Shown here: positions 19,964 through 22,936 of the stretch, piece by piece
Layout of the letters: each line of letters begins with the position of its first letter
How positions within the stretch are numbered: the stretch's first letter is position 1
Assembly (NCBI GenBank): GCA_947169915.1
Contig: CAMVRN010000009.1
Span: 1-38,818, forward strand
Origin: an uncultured Candidatus Saccharibacteria bacterium
GTDB taxonomy: Bacteria > Patescibacteriota > Saccharimonadia > Saccharimonadales > Saccharimonadaceae
Length of the DNA stretch: 38,818 nucleotides
Direction: 5' to 3'
Position numbers and translations under genes: made by a program
The notes under the pieces: generated by a model
The model's database searches: none
What the model saw: the letters and a program-made list of their open reading frames with translations, nothing else
Told to the model about the DNA's origin: nothing

Positions 19964-20623
19964 ATGAGAATTTTATATGTTGAGGACGAGAAACTACTAG
20001 CCGACGCAGTCACTCACTTGCTCAAGAAGTCAAACATTAATGTCGACTGGGCAGAAGATGGCGAAGAAGGTCTTCGACTAGCAAAGAAGCCTGTCTACGA
20101 CGCAATTGTTCTAGACATTATGCTCCCGAAGATGTCTGGTCTAGAAATTCTGGAAACTATTCGCAGACAAGGAATAAAAACGCCCGTCATCATGCTCTCC
20201 GCTCTAAGCGAAGTTGAAGACAAAGTACGTGGACTCGATATCGGCGCTGACGACTATCTAGCAAAGCCTTTCAAAACCAAAGAGCTCATTGCTCGTCTTA
20301 ATGCTCTTGTCCGCCGTCCAACTCTTCGCGAATCTAAAATAGTTAAATTTGAAGACCTTGAATTCGATATCGAAAACAGAACCGTAAATAACGTAGCACT
20401 CACAGAAAAAGAAGCTGAAATCCTAGAAATGCTCATAAATTCTGGTGAGAAAACCGTTCAGAAAGACTATATCTTGGCCCATGTCTGGGGTGCCGATATG
20501 ATTGCAGAAGATAATTATGTCGAAGTTTATATGTCCTATCTACGCAAAAAACTCAAAACAATCGGCTCAAAAGTTGCCATCAAAACCGTTCGCGGACTCG
20601 GCTATAAGCTCGTAATAAAATAA
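19964..20623 (+). CDS. OmpR/PhoB-family response regulator
   Basis: 219 residues. The receiver domain (1-115) has the acidic pocket VEDE (6-9), phospho-acceptor Asp51 (VLDIMLP) and Lys101 (AKPF). The winged-helix DNA-binding domain (about 125-219) has LTEKEAEILEML, the recognition region around VEVYMSYLRKKL, and the C-terminal hairpin VRGLGYKL. A weak ribosome binding site AAGGAA precedes the ATG. Four bases separate its stop from the kinase start, so this is a classical regulator-kinase operon. Confidence 0.95.
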   Translation: MRILYVEDEKLLADAVTHLLKKSNINVDWAEDGEEGLRLAKKPVYDAIVLDIMLPKMSGLEILETIRRQGIKTPVIMLSALSEVEDKVRGLDIGADDYLAKPFKTKELIARLNALVRRPTLRESKIVKFEDLEFDIENRTVNNVALTEKEAEILEMLINSGEKTVQKDYILAHVWGADMIAEDNYVEVYMSYLRKKLKTIGSKVAIKTVRGLGYKLVIK

Positions 20624-20627
20624 AAGT

Positions 20628-21626
20628 ATGTTTAATAAGCTCCGCACTCATTTTATCTTAATAAACTTAATAACCACTTCTATCATTCTTGCGTCAGCTT
20701 TTTCGACTGTCTATCTTGTCGCCAAAAATACTTCTGAAGCACGTCGCCCAATCGACGTAAACATAAACCTAAATGAAAGCGGAATAACAACCGAGTTCCA
20801 GCCAGCGAACGATGCAACTGACCCGCAAAGTGCCTATGTTCGTAAAATCGTCGAGGAACGTATCCTTGCAGACCGCGAACTATCTTTGCGCTCTCTCCTC
20901 ATCACCCTCATTGTCACCGGTCTTGCTGTCGAAATCATCGTCGCCGTCTTTTCTTACTACTTTGCAGACCAAGCAATCAAGCCAGTAAAAGAGGCGTACG
21001 AATCGCAAAAGATTTTTATCGCAAACGCATCCCACGAAATCAAAACTCCAGTCGCAGCCATAAAAGCGAATCTCGAAGCCGCCGACTTAAGTGACGAAAA
21101 CCATTGGATTAAAAACATTGAGCTAGAAGCCGATAAAATTGAAACTTTAAACCTTGCTCTTTTACGCCTTGCAAAAACCGACATTATGCAAGAAGCTATC
21201 GTGACTGAGGACGTTGATTTGGAACGCCTAGTAAAAGCTGTTACGAACTCTTTTTCTTCTCGCCTTGAACAAAAGGGAATCAATCTAAAAACCGATTCCG
21301 ACTTTAAGAAAGGCCAAAAAACCATAAAAATCAATCGAGCTGATTTTAAAGAAATCTTTGAGATTCTTTTCGACAATGCAATAAAATACTGCAAAAAATC
21401 TATTGAGATTAAGATTTCGCCTCATTCGCTACTCATCAAAAATGACGGCGCAACAATTCCGAAGGAAAAACTCCCGCGCATTTTTGACCGTTTCTACCAA
21501 GTCGACAAAAGTTCAAATGGCTCCGGTCTAGGTTTAGCTATTGCCATGTCATTAGCAAAACACAATAATTGGAACATTGAAGCAAAATCAGAAAACAAAA
21601 TCACATCATTCGAACTTAAATTCTAA
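20628..21626 (+). CDS. Sensor histidine kinase
   Basis: 332 residues. Two transmembrane helices (about 9-31 and 88-113) enclose a short outer domain of about 55 residues. A very short linker leads to the HisKA domain with His136 in IANASHEIKTP. The ATPase domain has FDNAIKY (N box), IFDRFYQVDKS (F box) and GSGLGLAIA (G box). The signal is unknown. The small sensor loop is too short for a known fold, so it may sense the membrane or bind directly. It is the partner of the upstream regulator. Confidence 0.94.
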   Translation: MFNKLRTHFILINLITTSIILASAFSTVYLVAKNTSEARRPIDVNINLNESGITTEFQPANDATDPQSAYVRKIVEERILADRELSLRSLLITLIVTGLAVEIIVAVFSYYFADQAIKPVKEAYESQKIFIANASHEIKTPVAAIKANLEAADLSDENHWIKNIELEADKIETLNLALLRLAKTDIMQEAIVTEDVDLERLVKAVTNSFSSRLEQKGINLKTDSDFKKGQKTIKINRADFKEIFEILFDNAIKYCKKSIEIKISPHSLLIKNDGATIPKEKLPRIFDRFYQVDKSSNGSGLGLAIAMSLAKHNNWNIEAKSENKITSFELKF

Positions 21627-21643: not shown

Positions 21644-21880
21644 ATGATTAAAGTATATACAACCCCAACATGCGTCTACTGTCATGCCCTCATGGACTGG
21701 CTAGACGAACAAAACATCAAATACGAGGAAATCGACGCTTCGACCTCCGACGAAGCAATTGAACTCGGAATTTCTGCCGTTCCTGTTACTATTATTACAG
21801 ACAGCAAAGGCAAAGAAACCCGCATCACTGGCTTCGACCGTCCAGCCCTCAAAAAAGCCCTCAAAGCATTGGCGGCATAA
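21644..21880 (+). CDS. Glutaredoxin-like thiol-disulfide oxidoreductase
   Basis: 78 residues, a minimal thioredoxin fold. The active site CVYC lies at residues 10-13 (TPTCVYCHALMDWL) and the cis-proline at SAVPVT (about 44-49), followed by the GFDRPALKKAL helix. It belongs to the NrdH/YruB-like group that reduces protein disulfides; the partner is not evident. It follows the kinase gene by 17 bases but has its own -10 box, so it may be partly independent. Confidence 0.88.
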   Translation: MIKVYTTPTCVYCHALMDWLDEQNIKYEEIDASTSDEAIELGISAVPVTIITDSKGKETRITGFDRPALKKALKALAA

Positions 21881-21933: not shown

Positions 21934-21939
21934 TATAAT
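21934..21939 (+). promoter_or_regulatory. -10 box of the structured-leader gene
   Basis: TATAAT at 21934-21939, with an expected start near 21946. The palindrome TGTCTAGACA (21945-21954) lies across that start. A variant, TGTCCAGACA, follows at 21967-21976, exactly 22 bases on. No convincing -35 hexamer is seen. Confidence 0.5.
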
Positions 21940-21944
21940 AAAAG

Positions 21945-22083
21945 TGTCTAGACATACTTCGGTCACTGTCCAGACAAAATCAACATAGCAGTTGGATGTC
22001 TGTCATTTCATCCTTCTGCCAAGAGCCTCCAAAAGTTTGGGCTCACATAAATGACTCTAAGATAAATTATCAAGGAGTTACTT
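21945..22083 (+). ncRNA. Structured 5' leader (candidate cis-regulatory RNA)
   Basis: About 138 bases lie between the expected transcript start and the ATG at 22084. Three hairpins can be drawn. H1: TGTCTAGACA (21945-21954) with TGTCCAGACA (21967-21976), 9 of 10 pairs. H2: GCAG-tt-GGATG (21988-21998) with CATCC-tt-CTGC (22009-22019), with a symmetric TT/TT internal loop. H3: GAGC..CCAA (22023-22032) with TTGGGCTC (22037-22044). An AAGGAG site (22072-22077) follows. It matches no riboswitch class I can name. Confidence 0.5.
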
Positions 22084-22335
22084 ATGAAAAATAATAAAAC
22101 TACATCCGAACGCGTCGAAGTCATGGCTCTTTTCGGCTATGAAATGACGCCTTGCCAACCGCTTTCTTTCAAGAAGCGTGGCGAAAGCGAAGTCGAAGTT
22201 ACGGAGCTTCTCCGAACTCGCATCAAATTCGTCGGGCAAGCCGCTCATCATATCTTCGACATACTTGCGGGTCAAGCTAGATACGTGTTGGAGTTCAACT
22301 CAACCGACCTTAGCTGGCACATCAGCAAGGCGTAA
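22084..22335 (+). CDS. Small protein of unknown function with structured leader
   Basis: 83 residues; not recognised. It is soluble, with no signal peptide. The first 35 residues are polar with a basic patch (SFKKRGE). A central amphipathic stretch (about 38-65, TRIKFVGQAAHHIFDILAG) is followed by a strand-like end LEFNSTDLSWHI. AAGGAG lies six bases before the ATG. The gene stands alone between its own promoter with structured leader and a strong terminator, which suggests individual control. The translation reads cleanly and the SD is well placed, so I believe the gene is real. Confidence 0.65.
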   Translation: MKNNKTTSERVEVMALFGYEMTPCQPLSFKKRGESEVEVTELLRTRIKFVGQAAHHIFDILAGQARYVLEFNSTDLSWHISKA

Positions 22336-22344
22336 AGATGGAAA

Positions 22345-22370
22345 AATCCCCTCTCTCGAGGGGATTCTTT
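22345..22370. terminator. Bidirectional terminator
   Basis: AATCCCCTC (22345-22353) pairs with GAGGGGATT (22358-22366) across loop TCTC. It is followed by CTTTTA on plus and a five-T tract on minus, serving the convergent genes ending at 22335 and 22370. Confidence 0.9.
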
Positions 22371-22936
22371 TATTCACTAACTAGAATCGAAAATTCCCAG
22401 AAGACGTTATCAGCGCCTTTTGTCACCTCAAATCGACAGATACCGTCTTTCAAATTAACGTTTAATCTACCACTACCACTAGCCTTAGTCGTTTTCACCA
22501 CTTGAGCCTCGGTTCCATCTTCACATTTCACGATTGCCTCAAATTCAGCCACATTACCAGGGTCGTCACCTTCAAAGTTGTTTTGGAACATATAATCAAC
22601 TGAGCGCTCTCCTTCAGTTACGGAAAAAGCATTAGTAGCTACTCTACCTTGTCCAGGGAGCGTGATACCAAGTGGGTCAGCAACCGCATTTCCACTTCCA
22701 TCTTCAGGTGTTCCAGAACCGTTCCCATTTGAAGTAGTGTTGTTGTTTTTGAGCAAAACACAAACAACAATCAAAACTGCAAAAGCCATTACGCCAAGCA
22801 CTAAAGCGATAGGGCGACTCGTCTTCGCTTTCGCAACACCATTACTAGAATCGCCGTCAATAGTTTTCACCATCTGAGCATCTTCCCCAGAACGATGTTC
22901 TTTCTTTCTAGCTCTAACCTTATCTCGAATTTTCAT
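22370..22936 (-). CDS. Unknown exported, membrane-anchored protein
   Basis: 188 residues; not recognised. A basic, cytosolic N-terminus (1-42) precedes one transmembrane helix (about 43-62). A Asn/Gly/Ser-rich linker (about 63-85) and an outer beta-rich domain follow, with two Cys (in IVKCEDG and DGICRFE) positioned to form a disulfide. AAAGGAGG stands about six bases before the ATG. Its promoter is TGATATGAT (hexamer 22988-22983), within a 14-base string shared with the secY promoter. It lies downstream of lepB and upstream of a shared terminator. Confidence 0.7.
   Translation of the reverse strand: MKIRDKVRARKKEHRSGEDAQMVKTIDGDSSNGVAKAKTSRPIALVLGVMAFAVLIVVCVLLKNNNTTSNGNGSGTPEDGSGNAVADPLGITLPGQGRVATNAFSVTEGERSVDYMFQNNFEGDDPGNVAEFEAIVKCEDGTEAQVVKTTKASGSGRLNVNLKDGICRFEVTKGADNVFWEFSILVSE

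Follow-up and report, generated by a model that had tools for sequence, protein, structure and literature searches.

A structured mRNA leader conserved in Saccharibacteria, apparently an undescribed regulatory RNA for error-prone DNA repair

Introduction

What does a long structured leader do in front of a short, apparently isolated gene? The question is raised by a 38,818-nt stretch of DNA from an uncultured Candidatus Saccharibacteria bacterium (contig CAMVRN010000009.1 of assembly GCA_947169915.1; hereafter the window), in which about 138 bases of foldable sequence separate a promoter-like hexamer from the start codon of a gene for an 83-aa protein. The original prediction, made from the letters of the window, was that this leader forms three consecutive hairpins, that it fits no known riboswitch class, and that it could be a cis-regulatory RNA, a thermosensor or a stable small RNA. 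Here we compare the leader and the gene behind it with their counterparts in the genus, the family and the order, and weigh what the RNA may be doing.

Results

Organization of the locus

Features are on the plus strand unless stated otherwise. A TATAAT hexamer at 21934–21939 is the probable −10 box; the −35 element upstream of the leader is weak. In most relatives from the genus a −10-like box, often TGNTATAAT, occupies the equivalent position 5′ of the first hairpin. Transcription is likely to start at about 21946, placing the ATG at 22084 some 138 nt downstream, as had been proposed. The Shine-Dalgarno (SD) sequence AAGGAG (22072–22077), whose position is conserved, the reading frame for the 83-aa protein (22084–22335) and an intrinsic terminator 3′ of it (22345–22366 with its U-run, in a feature annotated as 22345–22376) are all present as well. 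The encoded protein is all-beta and belongs to a Patescibacteria-wide family. A 78-aa glutaredoxin/thioredoxin-like reading frame (21644–21880), with an equivalent at loci L257 and L258, adjoins the leader on its 5′ side, and a response regulator and histidine kinase pair lies further upstream (19964–21626). Convergent with the 83-aa gene is a 188-aa reading frame on the minus strand (22370–22936), with a probable membrane anchor, for which no family scored above the cut-off.

The leader folds into four hairpins

The segment from 21942 to 22090 has a minimum free energy of −43.9 kcal/mol, compared with −27.0 ± 3.3 kcal/mol for 200 shuffled sequences (z −5.1), none of which was as low. The three predicted hairpins are borne out, and a fourth, which had been overlooked, follows them. 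The first, H1 (21946–21975), is composed of an outer stem, P1, an asymmetric internal loop (U opposite CAC) and a UUCG tetraloop; the P1 pairs covary, and the core of the hairpin, AUACUUCGGUCACUG (21954–21968), is conserved order-wide with the consensus AYACUUCGGUCMCUG. The second, P2 (21988–22019), has in the window the symmetric UU/UU internal loop that had been described for it, a peculiarity of this sequence that is not kept in relatives. P3 (22023–22044) is closed by GAGCC and GGCUC. The fourth hairpin, P4 (22046–22086), has a fold energy of −11.9 kcal/mol and hides the ribosome-binding region: it pairs the GGAG of the SD together with the entire start codon, with pairing probabilities of 0.99 for the AUG and 0.66 for the SD.

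The structure is conserved and covaries

Of 36 genomes from the genus, 28 encode a homologue of the 83-aa protein, and the leaders of these 28 can be aligned along their entire length. When they were aligned by MAFFT on sequence alone, and the pseudoknot described below was scored in place of P4, 91% of cells were paired and 14 of 33 pairs changed on both sides. The covariation score of this alignment was 0.289, as against 0.149 after shuffling (0/500) and at most 0.106 for structures slid along the sequence. The double changes sit in P1 and in P2, where 9 of 11 pairs are affected; P3 and outer P4 are nearly invariant. In a larger set of 78 leaders, aligned by fitting to the structure, double changes affect 21 of 36 pairs, P4 is paired in 98–100% of cells, and P3 is paired in all of them with compensatory changes in one sequence only. 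The flanks of H1 pair better with their own partner than with flanks from other species, both in the genus and in the order (0/20,000 permutations in each; this and the other permutation tests preserve the make-up of columns and not the relatedness of sequences). The comparison of related leaders that had been suggested for this locus thus yields conserved pairing with many compensatory changes.

A covariance model of the leader matches 142 of 174 genomes of the genus, with one main match in each, and also finds the leader in genera g32, g42, g149 and g166 of the same family. Among the 36 genus genomes the RNA accompanies the protein strictly, being present in all 28 that encode it and in none of the 8 that do not; in another genome of the genus, G155, the protein is present and no RNA match was found.

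Two mutually exclusive pairings

The loop of P2 carries the heptamer GUCAUUU (22002–22008), which is invariant in 28 of 28 genus leaders. It is complementary to AAAUGAC (22049–22055), so that a pseudoknot could form, and this complementarity is retained in every one of the 28 leaders with five tolerated G–U changes. The AAAUGAC strand is also part of the 5′, anti-SD strand of P4. Because both pairings use it, P4 and the pseudoknot are mutually exclusive, and since P4 alone is worth −11.9 kcal/mol compared with −6.4 kcal/mol for the loop duplex, the SD-masked state should be the default. We infer that the leader RNA can switch between these two states. The pseudoknot sequence does not vary within the genus apart from the G–U changes, and the case for it there is therefore one of conservation and of an order-wide counterpart, not of double changes. 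For P4, the preference for own over cross-species pairing within the genus was modest (p 0.001). An upstream reading frame starting at the AUG inside AAAUGAC, which is invariant in the genus, was considered and rejected: the reading frames differ, no SD precedes this AUG, and order-wide leaders lack it.

H1 across the order and beyond

We searched 295 order genomes with a 13-mer from the H1 core, ACTTCGGTCMCTG. At most of the loci that lie outside the family it stands approximately 110–210 nt upstream of distant homologues of the 83-aa protein; five matches in genes or unrelated regions (L100, L125, L131, L134 and L136) were discarded as chance. The apical pair of H1 is seen as A–U, G–C and C–G across the order. 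In a sample drawn independently of H1, consisting of 100 loci fetched by the protein alone (99 with usable upstream regions), an H1 descriptor score of at least 10 was reached by 26 of 99 regions and by 0 of 198 controls. No H1 was recognised at 72 of the 99 loci, and the protein family therefore does not need it. The hairpin also occurs upstream of genes other than the small protein (L133, L135 and L270); at the last of these (G209:C1, near 376994), an H1-like hairpin precedes a 58-aa reading frame (MGRIEDLLPK...) that may be another target. Loci outside the family show no TATAAT but conserve the heptamer CAGACTT about 20 nt 5′ of H1 (L096–L099, L124, L127–L130 and L132), which may be a promoter element. 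A long H1 pattern run over 84,980 GTDB species genomes returned eight loci. Beyond the order, two phylum-level matches were found, both inside genes and discarded, and two H1 patterns found no copy in IMG/VR.

What follows H1 is more variable. Pairing between the 40 nt that follow H1 and the SD and start region was compared in 42 leaders from across the order: own partners reach −14.2 kcal/mol, as against −10.9 kcal/mol for partners taken from other loci (0/20,000 permutations). A P2-loop pseudoknot is found in most of these leaders, mainly as GAACGG/CCGUUC and also in compensated forms, among them GAGCGGA/UCCGCUC and UUAAGCGG/CCGCUUAA; taken over the whole pseudoknot region, own pairing was not significantly better than cross pairing (p 0.14), an outcome that a mostly conserved sequence would lead one to expect. 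In 11 of the 42, where 1.4 were expected, a hairpin resembling a terminator and followed by a U-run stands before the SD, and some H1 leaders may therefore act on transcription. In g32 a second, shorter H1 leader precedes a small-protein paralogue and then a polymerase gene. The strand directly after its H1 (AUUCAUAAAAUCC) matches GGAUUUUUAUGAAU around the SD and start codon, giving H1 plus an SD helix with no recognisable P2 or pseudoknot.

H1 leaders head translesion polymerase operons

Outside the family, most operons that begin with H1 and the small-protein gene continue with a gene for a Y-family (UmuC/DinB-like) polymerase, which in several cases is preceded by one for a UmuD-like peptidase; Pfam confirms the IMS and Peptidase_S24 domains in order-wide operons. 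In the genus, the polymerase gene directly follows the 83-aa gene in three genomes (G022, G031 and G129, with Pfam confirmation in G031). The association of the H1 leader with translesion-synthesis genes is thus supported at many independent loci. The description of the 83-aa gene as isolated holds within the window and fails in these close relatives. In the window the polymerase is not part of the operon, for the 83-aa gene ends at its terminator and the polymerase of this genome is on another contig (G000:C2). The window therefore seems to retain the leader and first gene of an operon from which the polymerase has moved or been lost, a direction of change that we infer.

Four loci (L098, L099, L129 and L132) carry two small-protein paralogues each, of which one follows the H1 leader and the other precedes the Y-family polymerase gene. 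A short reading frame after the polymerase gene in L256 (2491–2731; SKHKKMPREQRAKQFSPFEAL) resembles YolD-like proteins by eye. The LexA-like protein of the window genome (L255 819–1148, G000:C8) is 110 aa long and has a LexA DNA-binding domain and no peptidase domain. The idea that LexA is absent and replaced by the RNA was dropped, LexA-type domains being present in 93 of 99 genomes of the order.

The small-protein family

The product of the 83-aa gene had been called unknown, and searches of Pfam, NCBIfam, PADLOC and PDB sequences indeed returned nothing for it. Its AlphaFold model is confident and all-beta (mean pLDDT 89.7, pTM 0.77). A fold search found no confident structural relative: the best Foldseek E was 0.22, and VIA gave Z scores no higher than 6.4, reflecting common beta arrangements. 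Two weak similarities are leads only: a local resemblance, over 45 residues of the modelled fold, to PUR repeats, which bind nucleic acids (Z 5.9), and a non-significant match of one member of the small-protein alignment to DUF6504 (PF20114; E 0.076). The family is present in 250 of 295 genomes of the order and in 48 of 192 sampled genomes of the phylum. The protein is thus wider in range than the RNA, which is nested within it. Paralogues of the small protein share about 30% identity; the H1 core is nearly identical.

Discussion

The comparative analysis shows that a predicted structure of H1, P2 with a pseudoknot, P3 and an SD helix is conserved, and that across the order H1 heads small-protein and Y-family polymerase genes, some with UmuD. 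From these alignments it is well supported that the leader is a conserved cis-regulatory RNA in which the SD and start codon are predicted to be masked and H1 is the putative shared recognition element. Of the three functions originally offered, the cis-regulatory RNA is the one that the conserved, covarying pairing favors. The statement that no known riboswitch class fits also stands: a search of the window against Rfam 15 at gathering thresholds returned only a tRNA, and the leader and 26 related loci, searched with permissive E-values, gave chance matches and nothing credible. No description of the element was found in the literature that was open to searching, chiefly papers outside subscription journals. 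Taken together with the genes that it heads, the leader is apparently an undescribed regulatory RNA for error-prone DNA repair.

We consider it probable that the RNA forms the 5′ leader of an mRNA controlled at the level of translation, comprising H1, P2 with its pseudoknot option, P3 and the SD-hiding helix, in which the choice between P4 and the pseudoknot is set via H1. By default P4 would hold the ribosome off. In the genus, AAAUGAC could pair instead with the GUCAUUU of the P2 loop, which would break P4 and free the SD, so that the leader would alternate between an OFF state (P4) and an ON state (pseudoknot). A factor binding H1 would set the balance between them. H1 is taken as the putative recognition site for this trans-acting protein or ligand because it is the sole sequence kept in all variants, whereas the pseudoknot sequence and the expression platform vary, the latter between an SD helix and, in about a quarter of order-wide leaders, an additional terminator-like hairpin. 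As candidates for the binder we would rank the small beta-protein itself highest, closely followed by a metabolite or nucleotide and then by another protein. The purpose of such an arrangement may be to keep translesion-synthesis functions at a low level until the cell requires them.

The two leading candidates for the binder refine this switch in different directions, and neither is a reading we would bet on. It is possible, if rather doubtful, that the 83-aa protein recognizes H1 both in the mRNA that encodes it and in related operons, and thereby stabilizes or melts the SD helix. The strict co-occurrence of RNA and protein among the 36 genus genomes points this way, as do the small-protein gene's place immediately behind H1 at most loci in the order and the local likeness of the modelled fold to the PUR repeat. 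Strict autoregulation in cis is opposed by the loci at which H1 stands before other genes. Also against this reading are the divergence of the paralogues beside a nearly identical H1 core, the absence of H1 from most family members, and G155. The loci at which H1 precedes genes other than the small protein also favor a riboswitch, in which H1 and the P2/pseudoknot fold would form an aptamer for a small molecule or ion signalling DNA damage or nucleotide stress, binding of which would shift the balance between P4 and the pseudoknot. The leader does have a conserved, covarying, sensor-like domain at its 5′ side, joined to varied expression platforms. But the roughly 15 nt of H1 conserved across variants are few for an aptamer, and the second g32 leader dispenses with a recognisable P2 and pseudoknot, which makes this reading somewhat unlikely.

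The thermosensor, small-RNA and DNA-operator readings fit less well. An RNA thermometer, in which P4 would simply melt with temperature, would account for an SD and AUG held in a weak, imperfect AU-rich hairpin, but it assigns no role to the invariant H1 core and P2 loop, distant from the SD, or to the covariation of P1 and P2; the thermosensor originally suggested is thereby weakened and we regard it as very improbable. It is more improbable still that a stable small RNA arises from the leader, whether by processing or by termination. Its high folding stability would suit that function, but the window has no terminator between leader and reading frame, and the conserved structure, present in one copy adjoining its gene, takes in the SD and AUG. 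We would give equally little credence to a DNA operator or promoter feature, for instance for an SOS repressor, that only resembles an RNA. H1 does directly follow the −10 box, and LexA-type DNA-binding proteins are common in the order; yet the arms of P1 covary rather than being conserved, the core is not palindromic, so that no dyad-symmetric site is apparent, and the SD helix covaries with a start region 100–200 nt away.

The leader shares features with several known systems. Translational riboswitches with SD-sequestering platforms include preQ1-II, preQ1-III and SAM-II, and they resemble it in having a structured leader, a pseudoknot option, a masked SD and start codon, and one sensor with varied platforms; they differ in that the leader here lacks an Rfam match and heads genes for a small beta-protein and translesion polymerases rather than a metabolite pathway. 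Autogenous leaders of the ribosomal-protein type, such as those of S15, L20 and S4, similarly place a short conserved hairpin and a pseudoknot or SD masking 5′ of a small-protein gene, but the small protein here is unmatched among Pfam, NCBIfam and PDB sequences, and its leader is found before other genes too. RNA thermometers, exemplified by FourU and ROSE, likewise hold the SD in a weak hairpin and differ from this leader, with its invariant distal sequence and covarying distal helices. The gene set itself recalls the umuDC and dinB operons under LexA (a UmuD-like S24 peptidase and UmuC/DinB-like IMS proteins), but the control element here is an RNA leader, and the LexA-like protein of the window genome shows a DNA-binding domain only.

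In its broadest form, our proposal is that H1 defines an undescribed regulatory RNA class confined to Saccharibacteria, which detects a signal linked to damage and regulates how operons for error-prone polymerases (umuDC/dinB-like) are translated; this we put forward tentatively, at somewhat less than even chances. The element is compact, single-copy in the genus, clearly covarying and undescribed in Rfam, which opens the way to a direct search for its ligand or protein partner, and it offers an entry point to a small-protein family, without known function, that nearly all genomes of the order encode. If the reading is correct, Saccharibacteria would govern a translesion-synthesis gene set via a structured mRNA leader, and, should the H1 class prove real, mutagenesis would be controlled at the RNA level in a reduced, host-dependent lineage.
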